This document shows, one piece after another, positions 8,349 to 35,775 of a stretch of DNA of 64,000 nt. The stretch covers positions 483,867 to 547,866 of the forward strand of contig NZ_MU255056.1 in NCBI RefSeq assembly GCF_000227725.2, written 5' to 3'. The notes under the pieces are model-generated. The model was not told where the DNA came from. It ran no database searches and saw only the letters and a list, made by a program, of their open reading frames with translations. The DNA comes from Thiorhodospira sibirica ATCC 700588 (GTDB lineage Bacteria; Pseudomonadota; Gammaproteobacteria; Ectothiorhodospirales; Ectothiorhodospiraceae). Position 1 is the stretch's first letter, and each line of letters starts with the position of its first letter. The position numbers and the translations under genes were made by a program.

Positions 8349-8453
8349 GCGGCGGCTTTTAGCCGTCGCAAGCTGTGCTGGACACATCTTGCGCTCGCTG
8401 TGGCGACACCTTCCAGGTGTCGCTTTCTTTTTGCGGCATCAAGATGATGCCGC
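8349..8453 (+). repeat. Paired-hairpin intergenic repeat after flgL
   Basis: Three inverted repeats lie in a row: GCGGCGGCT/AGCCGTCGC (8349-8369, one mismatch), GCGACACC/GGTGTCGC (8403-8423) and GCGGCATC/GATGCCGC (8433-8453). A pyrimidine-rich run (tttctttttg) follows the second one, so it could end transcription of the flg operon. The second and third hairpins recur in the same order at 11751-11802 and 35723-35775, which marks them as a dispersed repeat family and not only a terminator. The sequence between 8370 and 8402 also resembles the ATCTTGCG-TTCGC spacer of the array at 15129. Confidence 0.75.
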
Positions 8454-8519: not shown

Positions 8520-9041
8520 TCAGGGTACGACGTTTGACATGTGACCGACGTAGTAGCGCATGTGGACGAGTTTGCCGTTGACATCGCGAAACAGCAGATT
8601 CATGGTGTGGATGTCTTGGTACATGACGTGGACATGGCCGGTGAGGTGTTGCATGTGGGTGCGCATGCCGCTGACGTCGTGTTCCATGCTGAGCATGTTG
8701 CGGCTGATCATGTCCATTTGATCCACCATGACCGGCATCAGGGCGATGTTTTGGCCCATGGCGCTTACATGGGTGCGCATGCCGCTCATGCGTTCGCTCA
8801 TTTCGCCGAATTGTTCGTACATGGTGGTCATGTTACGGATGATGATCTGGGTTTCCTGTGCCAGGTCGCTGACAAAATACAGATTGACCAGGGCGACCAG
8901 GCCGATGAGCAAAAATACGATTTGTAACAGGCGCTGGGTACGCCGGGCCAGACCTGCGTCAATGGCCTGAGTGGCGCGAATGCTTTCCTCGGTTTGCTTG
9001 AGGCGGTGGAGGATGTGGGCTAGTTCGTCTCGGTGTTGCAT
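8520..9041 (-). CDS. Methionine-rich single-span membrane protein, coiled coil (second of a pair)
   Basis: Family not recognised. The 173-residue product has a basic N-terminal stretch of about 38 residues, one membrane helix (LLQIVFLLIGLVALVNLYF, about 38-57), then a soluble tail of about 115 residues, likely alpha-helical. The tail has 18 methionines at irregular heptad-like spacing, often beside His (THMQHL, VGHM). It is laid out like the product of 9089-9646 and is probably its paralogue. It is the last gene of an operon with that gene and the cyclase-like gene, 47 bases downstream of its neighbour. No enzyme motif is seen. Orientation is uncertain; the basic N-terminus suggests an N-in protein with a periplasmic tail. 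Binding of metal or sensing of oxidants through methionine is conceivable but only a guess. Confidence 0.75.
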   Translation of the reverse strand: MQHRDELAHILHRLKQTEESIRATQAIDAGLARRTQRLLQIVFLLIGLVALVNLYFVSDLAQETQIIIRNMTTMYEQFGEMSERMSGMRTHVSAMGQNIALMPVMVDQMDMISRNMLSMEHDVSGMRTHMQHLTGHVHVMYQDIHTMNLLFRDVNGKLVHMRYYVGHMSNVVP

Positions 9042-9088
9042 GGTGTGATGAGGTGACCTGCAGCGGGTAATGGAAAAGCCTTGCGCGC

Positions 9089-9646
9089 TTAACGCATGGG
9101 ACTAAAGGGCGCCCAGGGCATGAATTGATTGAACATCTGCATGGGCTTGGACATGTGTTGCACGTCACGGGTCATCATGCCCATCTGCGCATCCATGATA
9201 CGAAAGGACTCGCGCATCTCTGAGACCGAGGAGGCCAGCCCTTTGATGTCTTCTTCCATCACGCCCATGTGGGCGTAGATCGTGTGCATATCGCCGCTCA
9301 TGTGGGCGACGCTTTGATTCATGCTGTCCATGCGCCGCACAATGGCGCTCATGCTGTCTACGTCACGGTCCATGCGCGCCATGGCGAGCAGCATGGCGTC
9401 CATGTCTTTGTTCATCTGTGTGAAGTGGGTGTTCATGATGGAGCTGACCTGGCTCATGTGCTTCATCTGCGTTGACATCACCAAAATCAGGAAAAACAAC
9501 GCACCAATCACCAGCGCAAAGCCCAAAAACGTGGCCCGATAGAGAAAATTCAGGCGTTTGGCCATATTGGCGGTATTTTGCGCCTGTAAGGTGTGGATGG
9601 TTTCAAAGCAGCTGAGCGCATTATCGACCTGTTTGGGATTCATCAT
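9089..9646 (-). CDS. Methionine-rich single-span membrane protein, coiled coil (first of a pair)
   Basis: Family not recognised. The 185-residue product has a short N-terminal helix (residues 1-35), one membrane helix (ATFLGFALVIGALFFLILVM, about 38-57) and a long helical tail. Methionine makes up 29 of 185 residues, far above normal, mostly at positions 3, 4 or 7 apart (MKHM, MNKDMDAM, MSGDM, MSKPM). The start overlaps the stop of the upstream cyclase-like gene by four bases (ATGA), so translation is coupled. The layout (N-terminal helix, membrane span, Met-rich tail) matches the next gene, suggesting a duplicated pair that might form mixed coiled coils. The function is unknown. Confidence 0.8.
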   Translation of the reverse strand: MMNPKQVDNALSCFETIHTLQAQNTANMAKRLNFLYRATFLGFALVIGALFFLILVMSTQMKHMSQVSSIMNTHFTQMNKDMDAMLLAMARMDRDVDSMSAIVRRMDSMNQSVAHMSGDMHTIYAHMGVMEEDIKGLASSVSEMRESFRIMDAQMGMMTRDVQHMSKPMQMFNQFMPWAPFSPMR

Positions 9647-11703
9647 GGCGTGGCTCCCTCAGTAGCTGGCGAGAGCTGGGCGCGCAGGCTTTGAATCTGC
9701 CAGGCGACGGCGGCATCCTGGGGATAGCTTTCCTGTAAGGCCAGACATTTCTCCAGAGCGGCCTGGGGTTTGTGGTCGATGTAGCGCAGCGTCAGGGCGG
9801 CTTCATAACGGTTGATGTATTCCTGACAGGGGGCAGCCAGTACGCCTTCGGGCAGGGGGCCGACCAGTTCGTAAATTTTCATCGTGGCGCGCTGGTCGTT
9901 TTGCCGCCGCATGTCGATCTGATCCAGCCAGCGAAAGCAGAAGTCCTTGCTGACCTGGGCATGCAGAACGTCGCTGATGATGATTTGCGTGCCATAGCGT
10001 TTGTTCAGGCGCTCCAGCCAGTGACTGATGGCCACGCCATCGCCGAGCACCGAATAAAACATATATTCATCGGAACCAAAATTGCCCACGATGCATTCAT
10101 CGGTGTGCAAGCCGATACGGATGGCCATCTCCGGGAACTGTTGTTCTCGCCAGCTGCGATTGAGTGTCTGCACGGCCTTGAGAGCGTCGAGGGCGGCGGT
10201 GCAGGCTTTGCGCGCATCCTGCGGATCGGCAAAGGGGGCACCCCAGAAGGCGATGATACGATCATCAATGAATTTGTCGATGATGCCGCTGTGTTGGGCA
10301 ACGGTTTGAAACATTTCGTTTTGATAGCGGGTCAGGTAGGTGATTTTCTGCTGGGTCTGCATGCCCCGGCTATGCCGTTTAAGCTCGGTCACTTCGCTAT
10401 TCATCAAGATGAGTGGGCGCGCCTCGCCGCCGAGTTTGGCCTCGTGTTGGGTGTGTAGAAGCTGACGAATCAGCGCGGTGGGGACGTAGCGGTTAAAGGC
10501 GACCAGACTGCGGCTCATGTTTTTGATCGAGCTGTCGAGGCGGCGAAACTCATTGAACGGGGCATTGACCGGCTTGAGTTCATTAAAGCGCAGCTGCTCC
10601 ATCAGGTCGGTGTTAGCGACCACTTGCTGTAGGGGGCGGGTCAACTGGTTGGCAATCACATAGACAATGTAGGTGGCCACAATCAGCAGGATCAGGGCCA
10701 GCATCAGCGAGGTGTACAGCCCCCGGTTGATGGTTGCCAGCACCTCATAATCGGGCACGATGCCCAGCAGATACCAGTCCTGATTAAAGCCTCGGGTAAG
10801 CTGCGAGGCTTTGATGAAGTAGCGCTTGCCGTCCAGCGTCAGATTGAGCACCGCCCCGCCGCTGCTGGGTGCGCTGTTGAGCTGGGCCTGGACGGCCTCC
10901 CAGGCCTGGGCAATCCAGGGCGGGTTGATGTGCGCCAGTTTGAGAATGGATTCATCCCGCTGGGTGCTCCTGAGCGCCAGATTTTGGGAGTTGGCGAGCA
11001 CCTCTTCTGCGCCGTTGATGATGAATAAATGCCCCAGACGCGATTCGCTTAGAAACTGGTTGAGATCTGCCAAACCGATGTCGATTCCGGCCACCCCTTT
11101 GAGTTGCCCCTCGCTGTCCAGAATTGGATAGGAGATGGTGATGCCCAGCCCTTCGCCATCTTGCAGGGTGTAGACATCGCTCCAGTGGGGCTTGGGCGTA
11201 GTAGAAACCGCCTGATACCAGGGCCAGTCGCGCGGATTGTAGTCCAGCGCTTTGGTAATGCGCGCAAGCGGTTGATAGTCCGGATCGCGGTAAATCCATT
11301 CTTCATAGCCGTCGGCCTGACTGAAGTAATTGATGCGGGTAAGTTGATAGGGCTGTTTGCGCGCCTGCAAGAAATTGCCGTGTTGGTCTGCGATATAGCT
11401 GGCGCGATAAAAAGGCGAGCGCTGGTTTAAGGTCCACAGTAAGGCCATGACCTCCTCATGTTCGGCGATGAGATCTTTATCCTGCACCACCAAAGACAGC
11501 ATCGACAAGCGATTGCCGGTGAGTTCGACCAGATTGTTGATGCGTAACAGCATTTGATCCACGGTGCTGTCAATGATCCGGCTGCTCAGATCAATCACGC
11601 CGGAACGCGCCTGATAATAGCTGTTGAGCGCCACCACCGAGACGGTGATCACCAGCAACAGACTGAACAACACCAGAATAACGCTTTTAAAACCGACTTT
11701 CAT
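9643..11703 (-). CDS. Cache-HAMP class III cyclase-like receptor, probably catalytically inactive
   Basis: The 686-residue membrane protein has a first span at about residues 7-27, a large periplasmic dCache-type sensor (about 35-310; YYQARSGVIDLSS through GVAGIDIGLADLNQ), a second span at about 325-345, a HAMP-like linker and a class III cyclase fold at about 425-620. The fold is recognisable from IIDKFIDDRIIAFWGAP and VGNFGSDEYMFYSVLGDGV. Key residues are changed: the first metal-binding Asp appears as Ser436, the transition-state Asn as Ala558 and the Arg as Trp562. The second Asp and the purine-contacting Lys remain. A C-terminal stretch (620-686) looks helical. It is probably a sensor whose cyclase fold serves as a binding or dimerisation module. 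It leads an operon with two Met-rich membrane proteins. Confidence 0.85.
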   Translation of the reverse strand: MKVGFKSVILVLFSLLLVITVSVVALNSYYQARSGVIDLSSRIIDSTVDQMLLRINNLVELTGNRLSMLSLVVQDKDLIAEHEEVMALLWTLNQRSPFYRASYIADQHGNFLQARKQPYQLTRINYFSQADGYEEWIYRDPDYQPLARITKALDYNPRDWPWYQAVSTTPKPHWSDVYTLQDGEGLGITISYPILDSEGQLKGVAGIDIGLADLNQFLSESRLGHLFIINGAEEVLANSQNLALRSTQRDESILKLAHINPPWIAQAWEAVQAQLNSAPSSGGAVLNLTLDGKRYFIKASQLTRGFNQDWYLLGIVPDYEVLATINRGLYTSLMLALILLIVATYIVYVIANQLTRPLQQVVANTDLMEQLRFNELKPVNAPFNEFRRLDSSIKNMSRSLVAFNRYVPTALIRQLLHTQHEAKLGGEARPLILMNSEVTELKRHSRGMQTQQKITYLTRYQNEMFQTVAQHSGIIDKFIDDRIIAFWGAPFADPQDARKACTAALDALKAVQTLNRSWREQQFPEMAIRIGLHTDECIVGNFGSDEYMFYSVLGDGVAISHWLERLNKRYGTQIIISDVLHAQVSKDFCFRWLDQIDMRRQNDQRATMKIYELVGPLPEGVLAAPCQEYINRYEAALTLRYIDHKPQAALEKCLALQESYPQDAAVAWQIQSLRAQLSPATEGATP

Positions 11704-11750: not shown

Positions 11751-11802
11751 GCGACACCTGGAAGGTGTCGCTTTTTTTGCAGCGGCATCTCAAAGATGCC
11801 GC
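11751..11802 (+). repeat. Paired-hairpin intergenic repeat
   Basis: GCGACACC/GGTGTCGC (11751-11771), seven Ts, then GCGGCATC/GATGCCGC (11782-11802). The layout is the same as at 8403-8453 and 35723-35775; only loop bases differ. It lies between the cyclase-like gene and the end of the RND gene, both on the minus strand, where it may shape mRNA ends. Confidence 0.75.
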
Positions 11803-11808
11803 CACCGC

Positions 11809-14800
11809 TTAGTCTGCACGGGCGGTGATCAAGTGTAGCCGCGTGCGCACATAGCTGTAATACAAGACCGGGATGAGGATCAAGGTCAGCGCGGTGGAGA
11901 CAAAGATGCCAAAGATCAGGGCAATCGCCAAGCCGCTAAAAATCGGGTCATCGAGAATAAAGAAGGCCCCGATCATCGCCGCCAGGCCGGTGAGAATAAT
12001 CGGCTTGGCGCGTACGGCACCGGCGTTGATCACCGCCTGCTCAATGCTTTGACCACGGCGCACCTCATCGTTGATGAAGTCCACCAACAAGATGGAGTTG
12101 CGCACGATGATCCCCGCCAGCGCAATCATGCCGATCATGGAGGTCGCGGTAAACTTGGCGTCCATGAAGAAGATATCCATGAAAGCATGACCAGGCATTA
12201 CCCCGATGATGGTCATGGGAATCGGCGCCATGATAATCAAGGGCACGGCATAGGAACGAAACTGCGCCACCACCAGCAGATAAATCAGCAGCAGTCCCAC
12301 GGAATAGGCAATTCCCATGTCGCGGAAGGTTTCGTAGGTCACTTGCCATTCGCCATCCCACTTCAGGCTGTAAAACGCCGGATCCTCGGGCGGCTGGATG
12401 AAAAACTGCTCCAGCGGCTTGTCATAGACCATGGGGATATCACGCAGCTCCGAGGACAAGGCAAACATGCCGTATAAGGGGCTGTCGAGTTCACCGGCCA
12501 TATCCCCAAACACATAGACCACCGGCAGCAGGTCTTTGTGGAAAATGCTCTGCTCACGGGTGGTTTCACGCACCGTCACCAGTTCGCCGATCGGCACCAT
12601 CGCCCCGTTTTGTGCGCGCACTTTAAGCTGCATCACCTGATCCAGACTGGCCTTGTCCTGTGAGCGGAAATCCAGGCGGATGGGCACGGCATATTTCACA
12701 TGACTGTCATATAAAAAGCTGACATCCTCGCCGTTTAATACCGCCTGCACGGCATGGGCGATGCTGTCTTGCGCCACCCCCAAAAGGGCCGCTTTTTGCC
12801 GGTCGATTTCCAGGATATAGCGTGCTCCGGGGTATTCCACGCTGTCATCAATATCCACAATCCCGCGCCCGCGTTCAAAGACCTCGCGCAATTGCGTGGC
12901 CACAGCGATTTGTCCCTGATAATCCGGGCCATAGATCTCGGCGACAATGGGTGACATCACCGGCGGGCCGGGCGGCACTTCGACGACCTTGACCCGTCCA
13001 CCGTGGCGGCGGGCGATTTCATGCAAGCTTGGGCGCACCTGCGTGGCAATCACATGGCTTTGCAGGCTGCGATCATCTTTGTGGATCAGATTGACCTGGA
13101 TATCGCCCTGATGCGCTTCGCTGCGCAGATAATACTGACGCACCAGACCGTTAAAGCCTATCGGTGCCGAGGTTCCGGCATAGATTTGATAATCCGTGAC
13201 CTCCGGGATGGTCGCCAGATAGGCCCCCATTTCCGCCAGCACCGCTTGGGTATGCTCCAGCGTGGTGCCCTCGGGCATGTCCAGCACCACCTGAAACTCG
13301 GATTTATCATCAAAGGGCAGCATCTTGAGCACTACCCACTGAAAATACACCAAGGAAACCGAGGCGATAATCAGCAGCAGGATGCTGAAATACAAGAGCA
13401 GGCGGCGTTTGGCCGCCCAGGCGCCGCGCAGAAACGGCCCGATGATGGCATTGGCAATGGCATATAGGCGATCCGAGGCCGCTTCGCCGCCCCCCGCATG
13501 GCCATGTTCCGGGGCTGTTCCCGCCGGGGCAGCGTGGGCGTGAGCATGGCGGCGCAGCAGTTTGTAGGTCATCCACGGGGTGACGATAAAGGCCACAGCC
13601 AGAGAGATCAGCATTCCCATGCTGGCATTGATCGGAATCGGGCTCATGTACGGCCCCATCAGGCCGGTGACAAAGGCCATCGGCAACAGTGCCGCAATCA
13701 CGGTAAAGGTGGCCAGAATGGTGGGGCCGCCGACCTCATCCACCGCCAGCGGAATCGCCTCCAGCAAGGTTTTCTCGCCGAGCTGCATGTGACGGTGAAT
13801 ATTCTCCACCACCACAATCGCATCATCGACCAGGATACCGATGGAGAAAATCAGCGCAAACAGTGAAACCCGGTTGAGGGTAAAGCCATAGGCCCAGGAG
13901 GCAAACAGCGTCAGGGCGAGGGTGATCACCACGGCGGTGCCGACAATCAAGGCCTCACGCCAGCCCAGCGCAATCCACACCAGCACCACCACCGCACTGG
14001 TGGCAAAGATCAGTTTTTTGATCAGATGCTGGGCTTTTTCATTGGCGGTTTGTCCATAATCGCGGGTGATGGTGTATTCCACTCCCTCCGGGATTAAGGT
14101 GCCTTGCAATTGCTCCAGGCGCTGGCGTAGCCCTTGGGAGATATCCACCGCATTCATGCCGGGCTGTTTGGCCACAGCGATGGTCACTGCCGGATGGAGC
14201 AGCCCCGCCGGTTGCGCGCTGGCAGCCCCGTGTGCAAAGCTGACATATTGATGCGACGGGGCCGGCCCGTGTACGATCTCGGCAACATCGCCCAGATACA
14301 CCGGACGGCGTTCAAAGACGCCGACCACCAGCTGTGCCACTTCCTCCACCGTGCTGAGAAAGGTGCCTGCCTGCACGGGGATTTGCAGGTTATCGCGGAT
14401 CAAGACTCCGGCATCATAGGAGCCATTACTCGCCGACAGGGCGCGCCGCAGATCATCCAGGGTGATGCCATAACCGGCCAGGCGGTGTGCATCCAGCAGC
14501 ACCTGCACCACATGATCCGGGCCGCCGAGGGTGTAGAGATCCCGCGTTCCCGGAACCCGTTTGAGTTCGGTTTCAATGGCATGGGCTACGCGCAACAATT
14601 CATGACTGCCCCGCGTTGGATCCTCGGTCCACAGGGTCACGGTAAAAATTGGCACATCATCAATGCCGCGTGGTTTGACAATGGCCTGACCAACCCCCAG
14701 CCCGCGAGGCAACCAATCCTGATTGGAATAGATCTGGTTATACAGTCCGACAATGGCCTCGGTGCGGTCGCGTCCAACCTTGAATTGCACCGTGACCATC

Positions 14801-15075
14801 GCCATCCCTGGACGTGAAACCGAATAGATATGCTCCAGCCCTTCGATTTCGGATAACACCTGTTGTGCCGGAATACTGACCAGCTGCTCCACTTCCTGCG
14901 CACTCGCCCCTGGAAAGGGGATAAACACGTCCACCAGCGTGACGTTAATCTGCGGCTCTTCCTCACGCGGTGTGATCAGAATCGCAAACAATCCCAGCAA
15001 CAGCCCGACTAAGGCCAGCAAGGGCGTGATTTGTGATGTCAAAAAGGCCTTGGCTACGCGCCCCGAAATACCCAT
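11809..15075 (-). CDS. RND-family efflux pump, inner-membrane permease
   Basis: The 1088-residue protein is a proton-driven RND permease of the AcrB/HAE type. It would take substrates from the periplasm or membrane and pass them through an adaptor and an outer-membrane channel. The fold is complete: first span near residue 10, two large periplasmic loops, twelve spans in all. The TM4 proton-relay pair is seen as GILVDDAIVVVENI (near 415-425), and the TM10-11 part reads NSILLVDFIND. A cytoplasmic loop near residue 510 is rich in His and Ala (HAHAHAAP, EHGHAGG), which is unusual. The ATG at 15075 has a GGGG-rich ribosome binding site; an upstream ATG at 15168 would translate repeat DNA. The adaptor gene lies upstream; no TolC-like gene is near. 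The substrate is unknown. Confidence 0.93.
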   Translation of the reverse strand: MGISGRVAKAFLTSQITPLLALVGLLLGLFAILITPREEEPQINVTLVDVFIPFPGASAQEVEQLVSIPAQQVLSEIEGLEHIYSVSRPGMAMVTVQFKVGRDRTEAIVGLYNQIYSNQDWLPRGLGVGQAIVKPRGIDDVPIFTVTLWTEDPTRGSHELLRVAHAIETELKRVPGTRDLYTLGGPDHVVQVLLDAHRLAGYGITLDDLRRALSASNGSYDAGVLIRDNLQIPVQAGTFLSTVEEVAQLVVGVFERRPVYLGDVAEIVHGPAPSHQYVSFAHGAASAQPAGLLHPAVTIAVAKQPGMNAVDISQGLRQRLEQLQGTLIPEGVEYTITRDYGQTANEKAQHLIKKLIFATSAVVVLVWIALGWREALIVGTAVVITLALTLFASWAYGFTLNRVSLFALIFSIGILVDDAIVVVENIHRHMQLGEKTLLEAIPLAVDEVGGPTILATFTVIAALLPMAFVTGLMGPYMSPIPINASMGMLISLAVAFIVTPWMTYKLLRRHAHAHAAPAGTAPEHGHAGGGEAASDRLYAIANAIIGPFLRGAWAAKRRLLLYFSILLLIIASVSLVYFQWVVLKMLPFDDKSEFQVVLDMPEGTTLEHTQAVLAEMGAYLATIPEVTDYQIYAGTSAPIGFNGLVRQYYLRSEAHQGDIQVNLIHKDDRSLQSHVIATQVRPSLHEIARRHGGRVKVVEVPPGPPVMSPIVAEIYGPDYQGQIAVATQLREVFERGRGIVDIDDSVEYPGARYILEIDRQKAALLGVAQDSIAHAVQAVLNGEDVSFLYDSHVKYAVPIRLDFRSQDKASLDQVMQLKVRAQNGAMVPIGELVTVRETTREQSIFHKDLLPVVYVFGDMAGELDSPLYGMFALSSELRDIPMVYDKPLEQFFIQPPEDPAFYSLKWDGEWQVTYETFRDMGIAYSVGLLLIYLLVVAQFRSYAVPLIIMAPIPMTIIGVMPGHAFMDIFFMDAKFTATSMIGMIALAGIIVRNSILLVDFINDEVRRGQSIEQAVINAGAVRAKPIILTGLAAMIGAFFILDDPIFSGLAIALIFGIFVSTALTLILIPVLYYSYVRTRLHLITARAD

Positions 15076-15128: not shown

Positions 15129-15294
15129 GTGGCGGACGCATCTTGCGTTCGCTTGGTTTAAGCGACACCTGGAAGGTGTCGCCACAGGCAGGTGCATCTT
15201 GCGTTCGCCTGGTTTAAGCGACACCTGGAAGGTGTCGCCACAGGCAGGTGCATCTTGCGTTCGCCTGGTTTAAGCGACATGAAGATGATGTCGC
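15129..15294 (-). repeat. Tandem array of a 56-bp palindromic repeat
   Basis: GCGACACC/GGTGTCGC hairpins begin at 15162 and 15218, and a variant (GCGACATG/GATGTCGC-like) at 15274. The period is exactly 56 bases. Each is preceded by GCATCTTGCGTTCGC and the linker TGGTTTAA. The first unit, flanked by GTGGCG...CGCCAC, is the reverse complement of the element inside tnpB at 44185-44242. The array fills the gap between the adaptor gene and the RND gene and would be transcribed with them. Confidence 0.85.
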
Positions 15295-15312: not shown

Positions 15313-16362
15313 CTAGCGCTGGGCCTGTTGTTTTAGGTATAAGCCCGCCCTGATCGGCTCCAGCGCCACCCGCTCACCCGCCTGCAGGCCAGCTAATACC
15401 TCGGTGAAGACCTCATCTGCATGGCCGCTGCGAATCTGGCGCAGGTGTACGCGATTATCCGCCCCCACCACATACACGGCGGTTAATTCACTGCGATGCA
15501 TCACCGCCGCACGAGGAACCACCAGCCGCTGTTTTTGGCCCACGGTAAAGGCCACTTTCACCGACATCCCCGGAAACAGGCCTGAGATGCCGGTGGGCAA
15601 ATCGGCACGCACCCGAAAGGTATTGGTCTGCGGATCGGCATAGGGGAAAAAGGTCAAGGTCTGGGTCGGTACGCTGAGCCGATCTTCCATGTGTACCGTC
15701 GCCTGGCGATGTTCGCGCACCGCGTTGATATGGCGTTGTGGCACATCGGCGGTGATGCGCAAGGCATCTAGCGAAATGCCTGCCATCAAGGGCTGGCCGG
15801 GATTCACCGTCTCGCCAATTTCGACATAGCGCTCCAGCACAATCCCGGCAAAGGGCGCCCGCACCCGGGTATATTCAAGCTGTTCGTTCGCCTCATCACG
15901 GCTGGCGCGGGCGGCATCCAGGCGGGCACGGGCCGCATCGCGGGCGCTGGTGGCCCGATCCATATCCGCTCTGGACACGAGATTGCGGGCGAAAATATCG
16001 CTGATGCGTTTAAATTCCGCCTCGGCCTCGCGCAAACCGGCCTGGGCCTCATTGAAGGCGGCGTTGGCCTGATTGACGCGCGCCCGTTGTTCGGTGTCGG
16101 TCAAGCGAACGATCAGGCTGCCCGCTGTCACATAATCATCCACATCGTAGGCAATCTCCATGATCCGCCCCGAGCCTTGCGCGGAGACGGTGGAGCGATG
16201 CACGGCTTCAATGCGCCCATCCAGCACTAACTGTTGGGCGCTGTCTTGATACACCGCCGTCTCGGTGGCAAAGGGAAGGCTCGCCGCTGACAGCCCAGCC
16301 GCATACCCCCCAAAAAGCCCCAAACACACCACAGCCCACAGCCACTGCCGCATTTTCTGCAT
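15313..16362 (-). CDS. RND efflux pump, periplasmic adaptor (membrane fusion protein)
   Basis: The 349-residue protein has a Sec signal peptide (cleavage near residue 26, after AAGLSA). Next comes a split biotinyl-lipoyl domain (IEAVHRSTVSAQGSGRIMEIAYDVDDYV and APFAGIVLERYVEIGETV, each only in part conserved). Between them is an alpha-hairpin (about 90-165; AAFNEAQAGLREAEAEFK). A beta-barrel and a membrane-proximal domain follow (FFPYADPQTNTFRVRADL). It would link the RND permease at 11809-15075 to an outer-membrane channel. The start ATG follows AGGGGAA at good spacing. The 237-base gap to the RND gene is filled by the repeat array, so the two genes are probably still one operon. The upstream region (16363-16420) is very AT-rich and may hold the promoter. 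Confidence 0.92.
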   Translation of the reverse strand: MQKMRQWLWAVVCLGLFGGYAAGLSAASLPFATETAVYQDSAQQLVLDGRIEAVHRSTVSAQGSGRIMEIAYDVDDYVTAGSLIVRLTDTEQRARVNQANAAFNEAQAGLREAEAEFKRISDIFARNLVSRADMDRATSARDAARARLDAARASRDEANEQLEYTRVRAPFAGIVLERYVEIGETVNPGQPLMAGISLDALRITADVPQRHINAVREHRQATVHMEDRLSVPTQTLTFFPYADPQTNTFRVRADLPTGISGLFPGMSVKVAFTVGQKQRLVVPRAAVMHRSELTAVYVVGADNRVHLRQIRSGHADEVFTEVLAGLQAGERVALEPIRAGLYLKQQAQR

Positions 16363-16498: not shown

Positions 16499-17359
16499 TC
16501 ACTGGCAATCGACCCACTGCATAGAGGGTGGTTGTGCGGGAATATAAAACACTTCGCGGCCATCTGCACCTAAGCTGGTTTCCAAAGCCAGCTGTAGCGG
16601 ACTGCGCTCACTCGGATCAATGGGCTGATCCGCGCCAGCGGGCATCACCTCAACGCCACGCTCGGCGCTGTCATCCGTATCCTCAGCAAAGGGATTATCC
16701 CCCAGACTGGGATCGAGGGTTAAAATCGCTGGCGGTGCATCCAGCAAAAAGGTCACACCATCAAGATTGGTAAAGGCTGCTTGCCCAGCCGGCACAATCA
16801 CCTCGCCCACACTCAGGGTTCCTACCAGTGTCTGGGTATACAAACCATCTGGCGGCGGATCAATGCCGATATGTTGCAAATCCATGCAATCGCCCCAGTC
16901 ACGCCGACAAAAGCGCAGCCGAAACTCGGTGCCACGGATACCGATGGTGGTCACCGGGGTGTGCAGACGATAGCTTTCTTGCTGCGCATCCCCCACCGCC
17001 CCGGTGACCGCCCGCAATCCGCCGCGAATCAGGCGCTGCACCTGTGTATCTTGCGTGACATCGCCGCTATATTGATAGGACTCAATCAGCAGACGGCTCA
17101 CCGGGCGCAAGGTCAGCGCGCCCCCGTCTGTAAAGCGCAGACGGGCACGGCTGTTGACCCCGGTCGCCACCGTATCCCCGACAAAAACCGGATCATCCTG
17201 CGACAAGGCACGCACCTCAAGGTCTCGCTCCAGTGCGGCAGTCACCGAACCACTCAAGGCGGTGACATGCGCCGCTGGATCAGCAGCCAGAACGGTCGAT
17301 ATCGTCAGCAGCCAAAGGCCCATGCAGAGGAGACCGCGTTTAATATATGTATGGTGCAT
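16499..17359 (-). CDS. Exported FecR-domain protein of the two-partner secretion operon
   Basis: The 286-residue product has a Sec signal peptide (GLLCMGLWLLTISTVLAAD, cleavage near residue 26), then a FecR domain at about 35-150 (FVGDTVATGVNSRARLRFTDG, split by variation, and TPVTTIGIRGTEF). The tail is acidic and Pro-rich. Classical FecR proteins are membrane-anchored sigma regulators; this one lacks a membrane span and has no sigma-factor neighbour, so it is more likely a periplasmic or surface protein working with TpsA/TpsB. The start at 17359 is chosen for its GAGGAG ribosome binding site. It follows tpsA by 11 bases and is clearly in its operon. Inverted octamers (CGCACGGC 16422-16429, GCCGTGCG 16472-16479) lie after its stop. 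Confidence 0.85.
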   Translation of the reverse strand: MHHTYIKRGLLCMGLWLLTISTVLAADPAAHVTALSGSVTAALERDLEVRALSQDDPVFVGDTVATGVNSRARLRFTDGGALTLRPVSRLLIESYQYSGDVTQDTQVQRLIRGGLRAVTGAVGDAQQESYRLHTPVTTIGIRGTEFRLRFCRRDWGDCMDLQHIGIDPPPDGLYTQTLVGTLSVGEVIVPAGQAAFTNLDGVTFLLDAPPAILTLDPSLGDNPFAEDTDDSAERGVEVMPAGADQPIDPSERSPLQLALETSLGADGREVFYIPAQPPSMQWVDCQ

Positions 17360-17370
17360 GGCGTCACTCC

Positions 17371-20300
17371 TCAACGACACATTAGTTGCTGGCCGACGAT
17401 ACCCCCGCCGCTAACCCCAATCAGCGGCTGCGTGCGCAGATCATCCTCATCCGCCGCCCCGTTGATGCTGGCCGTCTGCGGATGCATCTCCCACGCTGCA
17501 TCGTCTCCTGCAAGCGGTGTATCCATCAGCTGCATAATGGACTGCTCGACCTCGGCCACCACCCGTTGCTCGGCCATTCCTGGCGTGGGTTCGGGTTCTA
17601 CGGGTTGTTCAGGTTCTACGGGTTGTTCAGGTTCTACGGGTTGTTCAGGTTCTACGGGTTGTTCAGGTTCTACGGGTTGTTCAGGTTCTACGGGTTGTTC
17701 AGGTTCTACGGGTTGTTCAGGTTCTACGGGTTGTTCAGGTTCTACGGGTTGTTCAGGTTCTACGGGTTGTTCGGGTTCTACGGGTTGTTCAGGTTCTACG
17801 GGTTGTTCGGGTTCTACGGGTTGTTCAGGTTCTACGGGTTGTTCAGGCTCTACCGGTTCTTCTGGGTCTGTTGGTTCTTCTGGGTCTGTTGGTTCTTCTG
17901 GATCAACGGGGTCTTCTGGGTCTGTTGGTTCTTCCTGCAATTCCCCATCAAATCTGATTTCACCGAAAGCACTGAGGGTAATATTGTCGTTGATGTTGAT
18001 GGAGCCGCCTGGGGCATACAGATCGATATCGCCCGCCGTGGAGGTGATGTTGCCATCGACATTTAAATCACCGATGGTCGCCGCTTCAAGGTAGATATTG
18101 TTCATCGCCAGCACCCCGCCCTGGCCGATAGATAAGGGGCTGTTGGCGATCAGGGTCACAGCCCCTGCTGGCGCCGAAAGCTCGTATAGCGGGCTGGTGA
18201 ACAAAGGGCCGTAGTTGGTGATATAAACATCCCCAGAGGCGGCATGGATCTCATCTAATCTTAAGGTGGCCGGATTGGCGGGGCCATGATTGACCAGATA
18301 GATACCACCGGCATTCACCGTGGCACTTAGTTCGGCGGTGTCTGTGTTCAAGGCCGCCGTTGGGCTTCCCATCCCCTGGCGGGCCTGAAGATGCAGGCGC
18401 GGTGCGATGAGCGACGCCGAGAGCAGGGTCAGACGCCCGGCGGTCTCCAGATGGATCGCATGAAGCGCCGTCAGTGTGTGCGGTAGTTCGAGGTTTTCGC
18501 GGCTGTGAAGATTCAGAGTATCAAAGGTGGGCGCAATATTTCCCCCGCTCCAGGCAAAATCATCAGTGACTATCAAATCCCCCGTACCCTCAAGTAGGCC
18601 CCCCTCAAGGGTTAGCGCGGCAATATCGCCTCCTGCCAATAGCGCCACCCTGCCACCGCTTACTGCCAAGGCATCAAGCGCACCCGTGTCATGCAAGGAA
18701 AGTTGCCCTGATGTTACCGCCAGGCTGGCGATCTGATAACCACCCTGCAGATCCAGGGTGCCGCCAGAGACAGACAGGGCACCTGTAATGGCGGTGGAGC
18801 CGGTGACATTCAGCGTCCCACCCTGCACATCCAGCGCATTATTGGCCGCAATATCAAGTCCGTTGATGGTGGTTTCCAGTGCCGGATTGACGCGGCCATA
18901 GGTAACGGCGTAGCCGGGGGCGCCGCTGATCAATACCTCATGCCCGGCCTCGGGCAAGCCGCGTGACCAGTTGCCCGCCGTCTCCCAGGTCAGTCCTCCT
19001 GCCGCATTGGTAAAGACGTTGGCAGTGTCGCTCACCCCGCCATAAATCAAGCGCGCTGCCTCGCCCTCGCTCAAGGCATAGCCGAGGTTGAGCCCGGCAA
19101 ACTCCGGCCAGACCTCAAACGCATTGAAGCGACCGTTTAATGTACCGTCAACCTGCAAAAAGGGAAAAACGCTGCCGGGTGCAGGCTGGTAGTTATTCAG
19201 TAAACGCGCCTCCAGAAGGCCATCGAGGTGAATATCACCGACCACGCGAATGCGGCCAAACTCGCCGTCTTGCGTTCCCTTGATGCCCAGCTTGATGCGC
19301 GCCTCGGCAGTATTGACGAAGTTGCCGGTAATCTCCAGCGTATCCAGGGTGTCTGAATCGACCAGCACCGCCACATCACCGTTATTGCGCAGATTGCCCG
19401 CAATCGTACCGCGTCCAATCAGCTCGCCGTGATTGATCACCTCCGCCGCCTCAATGGTATGCGCCCACAGGGAATACGGCCCGGCATGGTTCTCAAACGC
19501 CACACCGGCGGCGACACTCAGGCGATCACTGCTCAGCGTGTAGGGAATCTCCACAGCGTCCAGCGCTCCCCGCGCCCGACGCAATAAATCCTCGCCTTGC
19601 ACCTCGGCACCGGCGGAATCCAGTCTGAGCAGACCGAGCTGCAGGCGCTGATCGTCCAGATGGCTGGCATTGTAATACCAGCGCACATAAGCACCGGGGG
19701 CGTCTGGGCGTCCGGCGATATAACTGAGCAAGGCGCCCGGTTGCTGCGGGATTTGACTGCCCTGCAAGGGCGTCTGGAAGAGCCCATTGGCATCGGTCAC
19801 CGATTCGCTAATCAATACACCGTCAATGTAGGTGCGCACCACCCAGCCGCTATTCACATAAGCCCCAGCGGCATCCAGCACAAAGCCTGAAACGACATAA
19901 TCCGCTGGCGCAGACGCGGCCCACGTCAGATAGGGATAAGAGGCCCCTTCATCAATGCCCCATAGAGCACTGAAATCCCAGCCAGTGAAACTGACACGCC
20001 GCATCATGGCATCACTGTCCAGGCCGGTGCAGCCGTCAATGACGCCGCCGCTGCCAGCGCACTGGCTCAGCCCGGAAGTGGTCGTGTTCCAGTAGGCAGA
20101 GATTACCTCGTTAGCGCCCCTATCCTCGCCAATCAAGCCGCCGATCTGGTCGCTTCCTGTCACCGCGCCGGAGGCATAGCTGTGTGCAATGCGGGTGCGT
20201 TGCGCGTTATAGCCCACCAGCCCGCCCACTTGCGTCGCACCGGCCTGACCGACATGGCCTGCGGCATAGCTGTTTTCAATAGTGCCTGCATTCGCACCCA

Positions 20301-23235
20301 CCAAACCGCCCAGCTGCTGGCTATCCTGACCGGCGGTAATGTGGCCTTGAGCATAGCTTTGCTGAATGAGTCCATCGCCTTCCGTCACCGTGGTGGAACC
20401 GCTGACATTTTCCCCCACCAGACCACCGAGCCTCTCACTGCGATCTCCTGCACTGACATTCCCGGTGGCATAGCTTTGCGTGATCTCTGCATAGCGGTTT
20501 TCGCCGACCAACCCGCCGAGCATCCGGCTATCATGGCCGCCTTGCACCTCCCCCGTGGCATAGCTTGCGATAATGATGGCATTGTCATTTTCTCCCGCCA
20601 AACCGCCCAGCTTTTCGCTGTTATCATGGCCGCGTATGTAGCCGGTGGCATGGCTATGCTCGATACGCCCCCAGTTACTGCCCACCAGACCGCCGACATA
20701 GCCGATGCCCTTGGCATAGCCCGTCGCATCACTGTTAAGAATTTGGCCACTGCGCAGATTTTGCCCGACCAATCCGCCGATGCGTGATCCAGACATTTCA
20801 AAATGGACATTCACCGCGCTATGGCTGTCAGTAATGCTTCCCTGATTGGAGCCCACCAGCCCGCCCACCTCGCTGATCCCGGTAAACTCCGGATTGGCCT
20901 GCATCCAGCCCTGCGTGTGGCTTTGCAAGATCTGACCGGCATTATTGCCGACCAGCCCGCCGACGCTGCTAACCGAGGATGCCTGGATTTCCAGCATGAC
21001 CTCTGCCTGGCTGGCCTCAATCGCCCCCTGATTGTGTCCCACCAGACCGCCGATGCGGCGACTGCCTTGCGTATCAATCTCGATAAGGACATCCTTAGCC
21101 TCACTGGCATCAATGCGCCCCGATGTCGTACTCCCTGCCACGTTATAACCGACCAGACCGCCGACCCGATCTTCACCGCGCACAAGGCCGCTGTTCACCA
21201 CCCCGGCGTGTACACTTCCCTGCTGATAACCTGCCAGCATCCCGACATTTTGCCGGCCTGTGACCTGACTTTGTACCACCGAGCTAGAGACCAGCGCACC
21301 ATAATTTCTGCCGACCAGCGCGCCTACATGCAAATCCCCGGCGATAGTGGCCCCCTGCAGCGTCAGGTTGCGCACCACGGTATCTGTTCCGGTGTAGCCA
21401 AACAGCCCCACATCCAGGGTTTGTGGCCGCTGGATGTGCAGATTGCTAATGCGATGCCCCAAGCCCGCAAACACGCCGCCAAAGTAGTGACTGACACCCG
21501 TACTACCGGAACCAATGGGCATAAATCCCGCGCCCTCATTCCAGGTGCGGGTATTGGAGGCATCAATGTCTTGACCCAGCACATAGTCCTCATTGCGCAG
21601 CGAAGGATGGGCAATGGCCTGCAAGGTGGGGCGTTGAGGCGGAGCAGTGTGATCCCCGGCCTGTCCGAGTTCGGTGATCACCGTGTATTGGCGTTCGGCA
21701 CCATCTGAGCCTAACTTGGTGGAAAAGGTGCTGGTGGCCGACAAAGACACCGGCTGATGCACGTAATATTCGGCGGGATTATTCGCGGCCACGGCTTTTT
21801 GCCCATACTCCAGCGCCAGCCCCGCGCCCTCAAGGGCCGACATGGGAGCATTGATATGAATATCATTCCAGGCGCTCAGGGTCAGCGTATGGGCACTCCA
21901 GGACACCGCATCATCGACGAGGATATCGCCATTGCCCGTGGCATCATCCGCTACATTGCACGCCACCCCCGTACACGCCACGCCGACAGCGAGGGTCTGA
22001 ATGGTCACATCGGTGCTCGCCAAGGCCGCTGACAGTGCCGCGCCGGTAATATCGCCGCCGCTGGGGGCTATGGTGAAATCCTGCGGATCAATCAGCCAGG
22101 TGCCGGTTTTGCCCTGCGGCGCGGCGGTGGTAATCACCGCATCCGGGGCAATACTGACCTGTGCCGCCGAGGTTTCGATAAAGCCACCATCGCCCCCCTG
22201 CGGGGCCGAGGCATCCAGCACACCGCCAATCTCAATGCGATTATCCTCAACGATGCGCCCCTCGTGCATCCCGCCGAGGATAAAAATCTCGCCCTCATGC
22301 TCTTCAATGGTTTGCGCCCGCACCAGTCCTTGATTGTTCACCACCGTCGCTTTCAGGCCATTGGCGACCCGCGCCGTCATGATGATGCGCCCGCCATCGG
22401 CGAGCAGTTCACCGATATTTTCCACCCCCGCCAGGGCGCTCAAGGTCGCCCGATCCACCGAAAGATTGATCAGTTGATCACCGTCGATGTCCAGCGTGAT
22501 GCGTTCCCCGCTGACCAGCGCAATATCACCGAGACGAGCCTGCACAATGCCCTCATTGCGGGTGTAATCACCGGCGAGAATCACATAGCCCGCATTGGCA
22601 TTGATCAGGCCGCGATTGATCACCCCGACCCCGTGCGTCGGTGCATCCACCGGGCGCTCAAATACAAAGCGCCCGGCCATGAAATCCTCATTGTGAATAT
22701 CCAGCGTAGACGCCACCAGACCCTGCACATCCACCCGGCTTTGCGGGCCGAAGACAATGCCTTGCGGATTGATCAAAAACACCTGCCCGTTGGCCTGTAT
22801 CTGCCCCAGAATCTGGCTGGGATTTTGCCCCAGAATGCGATTTAAGGTTGCAGCGTCAGCGCCGGGCTGTACAAAGCGCACCAGCGCATCGACATTCACA
22901 TCAAAGCGTTGCCATTCAATAATGGCGCGCTGGCTATGCTGTTCAATCAGTGTGGTATGCGCATCCGGGCGCGAGATCGTCGCCTCACCGGCGCGCAGCT
23001 GTTCGCCACCGGGGCCGCCCCATCCGGGCACGGGAAGCAACAAGGTGACACATAAAAGACTGCTGGAGGCCAGCGCGCTTGGCCTCAAATATGGCGTGGC
23101 CCTGGGTCGTCGTTGGGTACCAGCCTTGATGGCCTGCTGTATCGCCAAAGCCAGTGGCGTGCATGGATGCGGGGGGCGTGTGCGGATAACGCCTGTGCGG
23201 GGAGAAGGAAAACCATCAGATCGTCTTGATTTCAT
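17371..23235 (-). CDS. Two-partner secretion exoprotein (TpsA, filamentous-haemagglutinin type) with GLUG repeats
   Basis: The 1954-residue protein begins with a long basic leader of about 70 residues. A TPS secretion domain follows (about 75-330; GQVFLINPQGIVFGPQSRVDVQG). The middle, about 630-1060, is an array of some 18 GLUG-type repeats (pattern GGLVGxNxGxIxxSxAxGxV) expected to form a beta-helix. Regions at 1060-1760 look like further beta-rich stalk. A linker at about 1785-1885 is made of DPEEPT and EPEQPV repeats. The 70-residue tail ends QQLMCR. It should be secreted by the TpsB at 23263-24924 and held on or released from the surface, perhaps as an adhesin. The ATG at 23235 is preferred over the GTG at 23244 because a CAGG sits eight bases ahead. 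Confidence 0.92.
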   Translation of the reverse strand: MKSRRSDGFPSPRTGVIRTRPPHPCTPLALAIQQAIKAGTQRRPRATPYLRPSALASSSLLCVTLLLPVPGWGGPGGEQLRAGEATISRPDAHTTLIEQHSQRAIIEWQRFDVNVDALVRFVQPGADAATLNRILGQNPSQILGQIQANGQVFLINPQGIVFGPQSRVDVQGLVASTLDIHNEDFMAGRFVFERPVDAPTHGVGVINRGLINANAGYVILAGDYTRNEGIVQARLGDIALVSGERITLDIDGDQLINLSVDRATLSALAGVENIGELLADGGRIIMTARVANGLKATVVNNQGLVRAQTIEEHEGEIFILGGMHEGRIVEDNRIEIGGVLDASAPQGGDGGFIETSAAQVSIAPDAVITTAAPQGKTGTWLIDPQDFTIAPSGGDITGAALSAALASTDVTIQTLAVGVACTGVACNVADDATGNGDILVDDAVSWSAHTLTLSAWNDIHINAPMSALEGAGLALEYGQKAVAANNPAEYYVHQPVSLSATSTFSTKLGSDGAERQYTVITELGQAGDHTAPPQRPTLQAIAHPSLRNEDYVLGQDIDASNTRTWNEGAGFMPIGSGSTGVSHYFGGVFAGLGHRISNLHIQRPQTLDVGLFGYTGTDTVVRNLTLQGATIAGDLHVGALVGRNYGALVSSSVVQSQVTGRQNVGMLAGYQQGSVHAGVVNSGLVRGEDRVGGLVGYNVAGSTTSGRIDASEAKDVLIEIDTQGSRRIGGLVGHNQGAIEASQAEVMLEIQASSVSSVGGLVGNNAGQILQSHTQGWMQANPEFTGISEVGGLVGSNQGSITDSHSAVNVHFEMSGSRIGGLVGQNLRSGQILNSDATGYAKGIGYVGGLVGSNWGRIEHSHATGYIRGHDNSEKLGGLAGENDNAIIIASYATGEVQGGHDSRMLGGLVGENRYAEITQSYATGNVSAGDRSERLGGLVGENVSGSTTVTEGDGLIQQSYAQGHITAGQDSQQLGGLVGANAGTIENSYAAGHVGQAGATQVGGLVGYNAQRTRIAHSYASGAVTGSDQIGGLIGEDRGANEVISAYWNTTTSGLSQCAGSGGVIDGCTGLDSDAMMRRVSFTGWDFSALWGIDEGASYPYLTWAASAPADYVVSGFVLDAAGAYVNSGWVVRTYIDGVLISESVTDANGLFQTPLQGSQIPQQPGALLSYIAGRPDAPGAYVRWYYNASHLDDQRLQLGLLRLDSAGAEVQGEDLLRRARGALDAVEIPYTLSSDRLSVAAGVAFENHAGPYSLWAHTIEAAEVINHGELIGRGTIAGNLRNNGDVAVLVDSDTLDTLEITGNFVNTAEARIKLGIKGTQDGEFGRIRVVGDIHLDGLLEARLLNNYQPAPGSVFPFLQVDGTLNGRFNAFEVWPEFAGLNLGYALSEGEAARLIYGGVSDTANVFTNAAGGLTWETAGNWSRGLPEAGHEVLISGAPGYAVTYGRVNPALETTINGLDIAANNALDVQGGTLNVTGSTAITGALSVSGGTLDLQGGYQIASLAVTSGQLSLHDTGALDALAVSGGRVALLAGGDIAALTLEGGLLEGTGDLIVTDDFAWSGGNIAPTFDTLNLHSRENLELPHTLTALHAIHLETAGRLTLLSASLIAPRLHLQARQGMGSPTAALNTDTAELSATVNAGGIYLVNHGPANPATLRLDEIHAASGDVYITNYGPLFTSPLYELSAPAGAVTLIANSPLSIGQGGVLAMNNIYLEAATIGDLNVDGNITSTAGDIDLYAPGGSININDNITLSAFGEIRFDGELQEEPTDPEDPVDPEEPTDPEEPTDPEEPVEPEQPVEPEQPVEPEQPVEPEQPVEPEQPVEPEQPVEPEQPVEPEQPVEPEQPVEPEQPVEPEQPVEPEQPVEPEQPVEPEQPVEPEPTPGMAEQRVVAEVEQSIMQLMDTPLAGDDAAWEMHPQTASINGAADEDDLRTQPLIGVSGGGIVGQQLMCR
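17596..17865 (-). repeat. Fifteen-fold 18-bp tandem repeat inside tpsA
   Basis: The unit ttctacgggttgttcagg (plus strand) recurs 15 times with a period of exactly 18 bases. A few units have G for A, and the last has drifted. It encodes the hexapeptide EPEQPV. The near identity of units at the DNA level points to recent expansion or active homogenisation by slippage or recombination. Copy number changes of one unit keep the frame and only alter linker length. Confidence 0.9.
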
Positions 23236-23262: not shown

Positions 23263-24924
23263 TTAAAAGGTCGTTGCCAGATGAACCCAATACAGGCTGC
23301 GGTCATCGTGGGCCTGCTCACCGCTCAAGGCATAGGCCCAGTGCAGACTCAACTGGTGGCGTTGTTGCAGTAACACCGCGCTACCCAGCCCCGCTGCCGT
23401 CAGCGAATCACTGCGCGAGAGACCCTCAGGTGGCCGTATCCGCTCCACCCAGCCGCTATCGACAAAGCCACGCAGACTGAGGTCAGCCTGCTCCAGGCGC
23501 ACATAGCGGCGCAGTTCAGCGCTTGCCTGTAGTCCTTGATCACCGCGCTGGCGCGAGGGCACAAAGCCACGCACGCTGTGCGGCCCGCCGAGGCTAAATT
23601 GCTGGCTATCGGGCAAGGGATCCAGCGAAAGCTGGGCGCTACTGCGCAGATGCACGCCCCAGTCCGGGTTTAGCAGGTAATCGAAGCTACCGCTGAGCGC
23701 CAGGCGACCCTGCATCGCATCCTCATTTGGGCCATCATCATGACAGCGCAGATTGCTGGCAAAACTGGCACTCAGTGAATAAAAGGCCTGCGCCAGCCGT
23801 CGATCAAACTGTAAGCGGGTGTCGAGGTATTGGATGCTGGCATCGGTCAAAGGCACCCCGTCCAGATCAGAGCGGCCTTTGCTGTGTACCAGCGCCGCAC
23901 TCAAAGACAGATTTTGCACCCGGCGACGCTGTAGCGGATAGCTGTATTGCAGGCGCGCATGTTCACTCACCCCATCCATATTCAGCGCGGCAAAATCGCC
24001 CCCGACATCATAGTCGGCACGGCTGTAAGCCAGACTGCCAACCCCGCCGCGATAGCCCACCGGGCGCGACCACTCCACGCGCCCCTGACGCAGTAAATTG
24101 GATTCCGCCACGGTGATGCCCAGACCCAACTGATCACCCCTGCCGCTCAGATTATAAAGATTGGCGGCCGTACCCACGCGCCACTGCCCGACACTTTCGG
24201 GGCCATGATTATCCACACTCAGGCGCAGATTCCAGCGCGTTTCTTCCATACGCAGGCGAATGTGTGAGGTGCCGTATTCCTCACCGGGAATGATCACCGA
24301 ACGCGCCACCAACCCCGGTAGATCGTTGAGCAGCAAAATCTCCCGCTCAATGACATCAAAGCGCAGCACCTCGCCGAGTGCAATCCCGCTCAGATGGCGA
24401 TGCAGGGTGTCATCCTGATAGCGCTGATTGCCCTCAAACAAAATCCCGGCAATCTGGCCCTCAATGATCTCAATCCGCACCCGCCCATCACTGACCCGCT
24501 GCGCCGGAATGGTGGCACTGGCCACACTGTAGCCGTGCTGCTGATAAAAAGCGGTAATCTCATCGGCCGTGGCATAAATCTCCGCCAGGGTCAGCGCCTG
24601 TCCATAGCGATCTGCAATCACTGCTTGCAGCGCCTCATTGCTGAAAACCTGATTGCCGACAAACTCAAAGGCATGGATGGTCACGCGAGGCCCGCCAGCA
24701 GGAATGTCGGCTGGCAACGGTGCGGTCATGGCAGGGGGGAGTGGATCAGCGGGAGGACGTGCGGGGGGAACAGGGGGACGTAGTGATTCTTCAACAACAC
24801 CAGGGCTTGGAAACTGCGCCATTGCCGGTGGCGTCAAGCCCAGCAATATCAGCACCCCAAACGCATATAGCACCCCGCAAACATGGGCTGCAAACAGCCC
24901 GCGAGAAGAGCGGTACACGAACAT
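23263..24924 (-). CDS. Two-partner secretion outer-membrane transporter TpsB (FhaC/ShlB family)
   Basis: The 553-residue protein has a signal peptide (cleavage near residue 36 after PPAMA) and a Pro-rich stretch. Two POTRA domains follow (about 78-155 and 155-230; VTIHAFEFVGNQVFSNEAL and ILFEGNQRYQDDTL). The rest is a 16-strand barrel ending in Phe (HLATTF). The barrel has the conserved SLGGPHSVRGF motif of the plug-loop L6 (VRGF/Y). It secretes the TpsA encoded 27 bases downstream. The ATG follows GAGGAAT. The length equals the family norm (about 550). The promoter should lie in 24925-25177, but no convincing -35/-10 pair was seen there. Confidence 0.94.
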   Translation of the reverse strand: MFVYRSSRGLFAAHVCGVLYAFGVLILLGLTPPAMAQFPSPGVVEESLRPPVPPARPPADPLPPAMTAPLPADIPAGGPRVTIHAFEFVGNQVFSNEALQAVIADRYGQALTLAEIYATADEITAFYQQHGYSVASATIPAQRVSDGRVRIEIIEGQIAGILFEGNQRYQDDTLHRHLSGIALGEVLRFDVIEREILLLNDLPGLVARSVIIPGEEYGTSHIRLRMEETRWNLRLSVDNHGPESVGQWRVGTAANLYNLSGRGDQLGLGITVAESNLLRQGRVEWSRPVGYRGGVGSLAYSRADYDVGGDFAALNMDGVSEHARLQYSYPLQRRRVQNLSLSAALVHSKGRSDLDGVPLTDASIQYLDTRLQFDRRLAQAFYSLSASFASNLRCHDDGPNEDAMQGRLALSGSFDYLLNPDWGVHLRSSAQLSLDPLPDSQQFSLGGPHSVRGFVPSRQRGDQGLQASAELRRYVRLEQADLSLRGFVDSGWVERIRPPEGLSRSDSLTAAGLGSAVLLQQRHQLSLHWAYALSGEQAHDDRSLYWVHLATTF

Positions 24925-35722: not shown

Positions 35723-35775
35723 GCGACACCTTCCAGGTGTCGCTTTTTTTTGCGGCGGCATCACGATGATGCCGC
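35723..35775 (+). repeat. Paired-hairpin intergenic repeat
   Basis: GCGACACC/GGTGTCGC (35723-35743), an eight-T run, then GCGGCATC/GATGCCGC (35755-35775). It is the same module as at 8403 and 11751, here between the divergent rluC and glycosyltransferase genes, where neither gene needs a terminator. This supports a mobile repeat rather than a dedicated terminator. Confidence 0.75.

Follow-up and report, generated by a model that had tools for sequence, protein, structure and literature searches.

MetA, MetB, and their neighbors in the window

The window, that is, the entire stretch of 64,000 nucleotides of Thiorhodospira sibirica DNA that was analyzed, contains a series of minus-strand genes in the order TpsB, TpsA, FecR, MFP, RND, receptor, MetA, and MetB. 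MetA (9089..9646, minus strand) encodes a protein of 185 amino acids, composed of a short cytosolic N terminus, a single transmembrane (TM) helix, and a Met-rich coiled-coil tail of approximately 120 residues with the C-terminal motif KPMQMFNQFMPW. The TM helix was assigned from sequence and hydropathy to about residues 38 to 57 (9476..9535, minus strand); Arg31 and Arg37, which are located ahead of it, suggest that the N terminus is inside and the tail periplasmic. MetB (8520..9041, minus strand) encodes a paralogue of 173 amino acids with the same architecture. The earlier note on this DNA had claimed two Met-rich single-span proteins, one of them with 29 Met among 185 residues, and both open reading frames were confirmed at this site. 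MetA contains 29 Met (15.7%), 7 His, and 1 Cys, and MetB contains 19 Met (11.0%), 12 His, and no Cys. Since the background Met content is 2.6% (SD, 1.8) in the called genes of at least 200 amino acids in the loci analyzed, these values are far beyond chance. An origin by DNA tandem repetition was rejected, because the DNA in question is not a tandem repeat. The two proteins share 25% identity (E value of 1.6e-5 in a within-genome comparison) and are joined in one family tree, in agreement with their initial description as paralogues. The start of MetA overlaps the stop of the receptor gene by ATGA (9643-9646), and MetB starts 47 bp downstream of MetA; the overlap originally ascribed to both genes thus holds for MetA and not for MetB.

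The receptor gene (9643..11703, minus strand) encodes a periplasmic dCache_1 sensor, a TM segment, and a degenerate class III cyclase domain. This domain scores 21.8 bits with the Guanylate_cyc profile, for which the Pfam cut-off is 21.9. The first metal-binding Asp is replaced (NSEV/NTGI, compared with FADI and FSDI in two cyclases of neighboring loci), the second Asp is kept (IDD), and the Arg of the VNxASR region is a Trp. Catalysis is unlikely, as neither the catalytic Arg nor the first metal-binding Asp has been retained, and the designation pseudo-cyclase given to this gene at the outset agrees with these changes. The window also contains a Cache chemotaxis receptor at 28888-30564, a homologue of which (51%, 454 amino acids) is found near a receptor-MetA-MetB trio at L058:4992-6944.

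Upstream of the receptor gene is that of an RND permease of the RND-1 subfamily (11809..15075, minus strand; ACR_tran, 520 bits). It is listed from a GTG at 15168, but this codon lies within a repeat element, which makes the ATG around 15075 the likelier start. The permease is 55 to 71% identical to the homologues counted as RND-1, and it scores 458.8 bits as HAE type versus 253 bits as CusA/CzcA. It is preceded by genes for a membrane fusion protein (MFP; 15313..16362, minus strand; HlyD_D23, 62 bits), which is 39% identical to the MFP of a TolC-MFP-RND-A-B operon at locus L095, and for a FecR-domain protein (16499..17359, minus strand), whose membership in the unit is uncertain. A two-partner secretion pair is encoded upstream of FecR-MFP-RND on the minus strand, with TpsA (1,954 amino acids, GLUG motifs) at 17371-23235 and the transporter TpsB at 23263-24924. 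No TolC gene for an outer membrane factor was found among the window neighbors, whereas such a gene is present at L095 and in most operons from outside the Gammaproteobacteria. The repeat element is REP-like and consists of the perfect palindrome GCGACACCT-TCC/GGA-AGGTGTCGC, which has 20 sites in the genome. Its sites in the window are at 8403-8423, 11751-11771, 15162-15182, 15218-15238, and 35723-35743; four of them are located at or beside the ends of the RND-receptor-MetA-MetB cluster, including the one over the listed GTG start.

Methionine in the coiled-coil core of the tails

Searches of MetA and MetB against Pfam and NCBIfam gave no match above a curated cut-off, and the matches below it were generic coiled coils; PADLOC likewise gave generic coiled-coil matches and no convincing one. 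The short membrane-anchored coiled coils of Pfam families DUF948 and DUF1664 were weakly matched by 7 and 8 of 19 MetA-like proteins, respectively. The window proteins reach 18 to 19 bits with DUF948, far below its gathering cut-off of 37.2, and the similarity to both families is probably that of generic coiled coils. Profile searches of the PDB retrieved generic coiled coils only (chemotaxis receptors, Lpp, GCN4 fusions, and designed bundles), among which MmpL4, with an E value of 3e-4, was no better than the others, and for this reason we claim no homology to PDB entries. The MCPsignal domain had no match in MetA, MetB, or the receptor. A literature search for Met-rich coiled coils associated with RND permeases or with a DUF302/ParA/dynamin cluster retrieved no report of this family. 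As neither a curated family above cut-off nor a published account was found, the remark in the earlier note that it knew of no described system with this composition is supported.

The anatomy of the tail was analyzed in 121 members that have a single strong TM segment. Past this segment, the tail has a median length of 124 residues (5 to 95% range, 113 to 138) and is 12.7% Met; the ratio Met/(Met+Ile+Leu+Val) is 0.42, compared with 0.10 in background genes, and Cys is found in 1 of the 121 tails. A register-free analysis of 81 nonredundant tails revealed (i) a peak period of 3.5 for Met plus hydrophobic residues, (ii) an excess of Met pairs spaced by 7 residues (3.6 times expectation) and by 14 residues (3.4 times), and (iii) Met pairs spaced by 1, 2, 5, 6, 8, 9, 12, and 13 residues at 0.06 to 0.26 of expectation, with Met-x-Met (spacing 2) at 0.12, an approximately eightfold depletion. 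Because Met recurs every 3.5 residues, it corresponds to a buried coiled-coil seam rather than an exposed set of ligands. In the fitted heptad register, Met is the commonest residue at d (55%), position a is 33% Met and 45% Val or Ile, Asn, Asp, Ser, and Thr predominate at e and g, and 96% of all Met are at a or d; these figures are partly built in, because the register was fitted on hydrophobic residues, including Met, and thus favors them at a and d. Most tails have one register break about 45 residues past the TM segment. AlphaFold2 was run on seven sequences and predicted MetA as a single helix from residue 4 to 175, with a pLDDT of about 80 to 91 over the TM segment and most of the tail; MetB was all-helical at lower confidence, with a break at residues 97 to 102. 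A helix of 118 to 124 residues would be approximately 18 nm long, which is near the width of the periplasm. The tail ends with a conserved motif around Pro-Met/Ala-x-x-Phe-Asn-x-x-x-Pro-Phe.

We then followed the columns of the window tail Met through 22 MetA and 21 MetB proteins. These columns are 46% Met and 38% Ile, Leu, or Val in MetA and 51% Met and 40% Ile, Leu, or Val in MetB, and five columns in each protein are at least 70% Met. Free replacement of Met by Leu, which according to the earlier note would speak against its view of these proteins, was thus found by half: Ile, Leu, or Val occupy some 38 to 40% of the cells, yet Met remains the most frequent residue at d. Judged from these alignments, Met is preferred but can be swapped with other core residues, a pattern that fits a soft seam or another structural role rather than a fixed metal site. 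The proximity of Met to His noted initially is mostly peculiar to this genome, as the window His columns are kept by no more than 6 of 22 homologues, with the exception of His160 of MetB, which is His in 10 of 21.

These data bear on the initial proposal that MetA and MetB sense copper or oxidants. Proteins that bind copper or silver or sense methionine oxidation would account for the high Met content of a probably periplasmic tail and for the proximity of an RND permease and a CusB-like MFP domain. However, Met-x-Met is depleted, Met occupies the heptad core and interchanges with Ile, Leu, and Val, conservation of His is lacking, the tails are almost devoid of Cys, and the permease fits the HAE type far better than CusA/CzcA. 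We therefore rejected a copper or oxidant ligand role as the leading reading, given the spacing and core placement of Met and the lack of His conservation, and consider it highly improbable.

Distribution of the pair and linkage to receptors and transporters

The receptor-MetA-MetB trio is present in 3 genomes of the family to which the window belongs, where MetA and MetB are 43 to 50% and 41 to 45% identical to the window proteins, respectively, and in 7 Thioalkalivibrio/gammaproteobacterial records from a named collection; the two sets probably overlap in part. Beyond the trio, profile A5, which describes MetA-like proteins, detected relatives with an E value of at most 1e-5 in 72 of 272 sampled gammaproteobacterial genera, and it also matches many other Pseudomonadota. 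The count of 72 is an upper bound, because among the weakest listed matches are long proteins, probably chemotaxis receptors. A plasmid copy of the family was looked for and not found. Tandem A-B pairs recur across the family, with several paralogues per genome, and in every one of the 22 pairs examined A is followed by B. A tree of 56 proteins that included these 22 pairs gave a single supported clade (95/83) for the A copies; one extra change is required for the B copies and another for the singletons, and the B subclades mirror the A subclades. The simplest reading of this topology would be a single old duplication that has been retained as a unit, which matches the expectation for a hetero-oligomer. 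MetA and MetB are a real, unnamed, and widespread two-protein family, present in the Gammaproteobacteria and in one other pseudomonadotal group. Singletons with a Met content of about 16% form a further Met-rich subfamily (L028, L030, L034, L046, L050, and L053); those of L046 and L050 are encoded upstream of proteins that, by the start of their sequences, resemble type I secretion components.

The linkage to RND permeases was strongest outside the Gammaproteobacteria, where the usual order is TolC-MFP-RND-MetA-MetB and most pairs are encoded directly behind the permease. In 15 of the 20 non-gammaproteobacterial RND-1 genes entered, MetA is 33 to 75 bp away and no receptor gene is beside it, and at five loci (L114, L115, L116, L118, and L120) the RND stop and the MetA start overlap by 4 bp. 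The pairs of L117, L128, and L130 have no adjoining RND permease, and one further RND-1 gene beyond the 20 entered, that of G489, had no Met-rich match. The same order (TolC, MFP, RND, MetA, MetB) is found at L095, whose permease is 61% identical to that of the window. Among the Gammaproteobacteria, RND-1 adjoins MetA in just 2 of the 37 cases entered, a count that left out the RND-1 genes of genomes without a Met-rich match, and an A/B subclade comprising L096, L097, L100, L103, L104, and L105 has no adjoining RND permease. RND-1 is common without MetA and MetB, so the pump can do without the pair.

Two other transporter types have Met-rich neighbors. A second RND type, RND-2 (42 to 45% identical), often has a single Met-rich paralogue nearby: a Met-rich gene was found within 10 kb in at least 18 of 45 gammaproteobacterial and at least 20 of 34 other cases, which are lower bounds because the contigs are short. 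With a few Met-rich genes in a genome of 3 to 4 Mb, we estimate that chance would bring one to within 10 kb of any particular gene in a few percent of cases at most. Rather than a pump partnership, a larger conserved cluster may underlie the linkage to RND-2. At the loci examined, this cluster contains genes for a ParA-like ATPase, a DUF302 membrane protein, a single Met-rich coiled-coil protein, a dynamin-like GTPase, an RND-2 permease whose C terminus carries a long extension, and in some cases a TPR protein, and it was seen in many Gammaproteobacteria and other Pseudomonadota (loci L041, L042, L044, L111, L112, and L052). The literature search yielded no paper on it. At L102, L106, and L131, a single A-like gene adjoins a LolA-like gene and an MMPL transporter gene.

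Various other genes follow MetB. At L114:7349-9226 and L129:7472-9427, the next gene encodes a cyclic-nucleotide-binding domain fused to a membrane part resembling sodium:sulfate symporters, and EAL-domain proteins are encoded immediately after MetB at L115:7589-8389 and L098:8295-9074. An EAL-like protein, judged by the start of its sequence, is found at L125:7835-8656. The gene at L124:6147-6968, which also follows MetB, encodes a protein with a sulfatase-modifying-factor (FGE) domain, and similar-looking genes are present in L126 and L127.

The coupling of the pair to the pseudo-cyclase, put forward in the earlier note, can be assessed against this background. According to this explanation, the two proteins would serve the Cache receptor as its dedicated partners and form a transmembrane relay or lattice for a periplasmic signal, with the pseudo-cyclase as the cytosolic docking part. 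It accounts for the conservation of the trio, with MetA directly after the receptor, in the window and the 7 Thioalkalivibrio/gammaproteobacterial records, and signaling genes (for EAL and cyclic-nucleotide-binding proteins and cyclases) recur near the pairs. Moreover, locus L094, the nearest outgroup to the window clade in the A tree, retains a Cache protein with two TM segments, but no cyclase, ahead of A and B; what is common to the receptor lineage is the sensor and not the cyclase. However, the receptor is limited to one clade, is mostly absent from the 22 tree pairs, and does not adjoin the A-B pairs of the 15 non-gammaproteobacterial RND-1 operons. The receptor is probably a lineage-specific addition, and because it is confined to that clade, we rejected a fixed partnership with it as the role of the family at large; we regard dedicated receptor partners as a rather doubtful explanation. 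The coupling initially proposed is hence supported by the recurrence of the trio but does not extend to most of the family, which is unlinked to a cyclase, and of the suggested membrane-bound helical assembly under receptor control, the paralogous, membrane-bound helical pair is retained, whereas the link to the receptor is not general.

A proposed Met-cored stalk for RND exporters and its comparison with known systems

As the family is encoded most often right behind efflux pump genes, it probably helps pumps to reach across the intermembrane space. Our preferred reading, to which we assign a probability of about one-half, is that MetA and MetB, as its two subunits, make up a coiled-coil stalk that is anchored in the inner membrane and works for exporters of the RND superfamily. 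The A and B tails would pair in parallel to form a rod of approximately 18 nm, near the width of the periplasm. This rod would stand beside the RND-MFP assembly, and the conserved C-terminal tip, Pro-Met-x-x-Phe-Asn-x-Phe-x-Pro-Phe, would reach the outer membrane side. The Met core may act as a soft seam that is able to slide or open during the pump cycle, so that the stalk would work in a manner resembling the Met-lined stalk of MmpL4 but be built from separate proteins. In the window genome, as in Thioalkalivibrio, the stalk genes would have gained, directly upstream and translationally coupled, a dCache receptor whose cyclase domain looks dead; this receptor probably gates or assembles the stalk upon a periplasmic signal.

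An alternative is a general envelope scaffold or spacer that spans the periplasm from the inner membrane to the wall or outer membrane, and that several systems, including pumps, have recruited. The narrow range of tail lengths near the periplasm width, the conserved tip motif, the varied neighborhoods in the Gammaproteobacteria, and the several paralogues per genome are all compatible with it. The linkage to three types of RND-superfamily transporter and the RND stop-start overlap are nevertheless more specific than a scaffold predicts, and we consider this explanation unlikely. A bolder form of the stalk reading is that the pair forms a hetero-oligomeric, Met-lined helical conduit or brace, encoded in trans to RND exporters and under Cache control in one lineage, as a Gram-negative counterpart of the Met-lined MmpL stalk. 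We offer it tentatively, as a possibility; if true, Met lining would be a convergent principle of RND export.

Bacteria export many of their drugs and metabolites through RND pumps, whose list of parts (permease, adaptor, and channel) is treated as settled. A widespread, unnamed, periplasm-length helical pair directly behind one RND subfamily would extend this list of subunits. In addition, the replacement of Leu by Met in a heptad core would make the unexplained Met lining of MmpL4 testable in a Gram-negative system, where a separately encoded stalk can be deleted or mutated with the permease left intact.

The closest comparison is with the mycobacterial MmpL transporters. The coiled-coil stalk of MmpL4 has a predicted lining of 45 methionines, whereas MmpL6 assembles a stalk with few methionines, and the authors of this preprint, which is partly based on predictions, therefore suggest that the methionines act in transport (PMC12803245). 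The stalk of MmpL4 and MmpL5 is required for export, and it resembles the proposed one in being an RND-associated coiled coil that extends far into the periplasm and is Met-lined inside (PMC12803245). It is, however, an alpha-hairpin insert of the permease that trimerizes, whereas MetA and MetB are separate membrane-anchored proteins that would each contribute a single parallel helix. Met is at core positions in MetA and MetB (period of 3.5; d, 55% Met), and a role as a channel is putative. No homology beyond the coiled coil could be demonstrated, and the likeness is one of working and not of membership. MmpS4 and MmpS5 are similar in that they are single-TM accessory proteins whose genes share an operon with that of an RND-superfamily transporter, but the periplasmic domain of MmpS is a beta-sandwich, whereas the models of MetA and MetB are all-helical.

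Small accessory proteins are also known from tripartite RND pumps. AcrZ is a short TM peptide accessory to AcrAB-TolC. YbjP is an outer-membrane lipoprotein accessory to the same pump (PMC13095208). Neither of the two has a long Met-cored coiled coil. Copper proteins of the CusF, CusB, and CopC type are periplasmic and Met-rich, and some are RND linked; their Met are exposed in clustered Met-x-Met or Met/His sites. In MetA and MetB, by contrast, Met is spaced in a 3-4-7 pattern within the core, and there are no conserved Met-x-Met or Met-His motifs. Overall, MetA and MetB are a probable accessory stalk of RND transporters, and copper sensing is unlikely.
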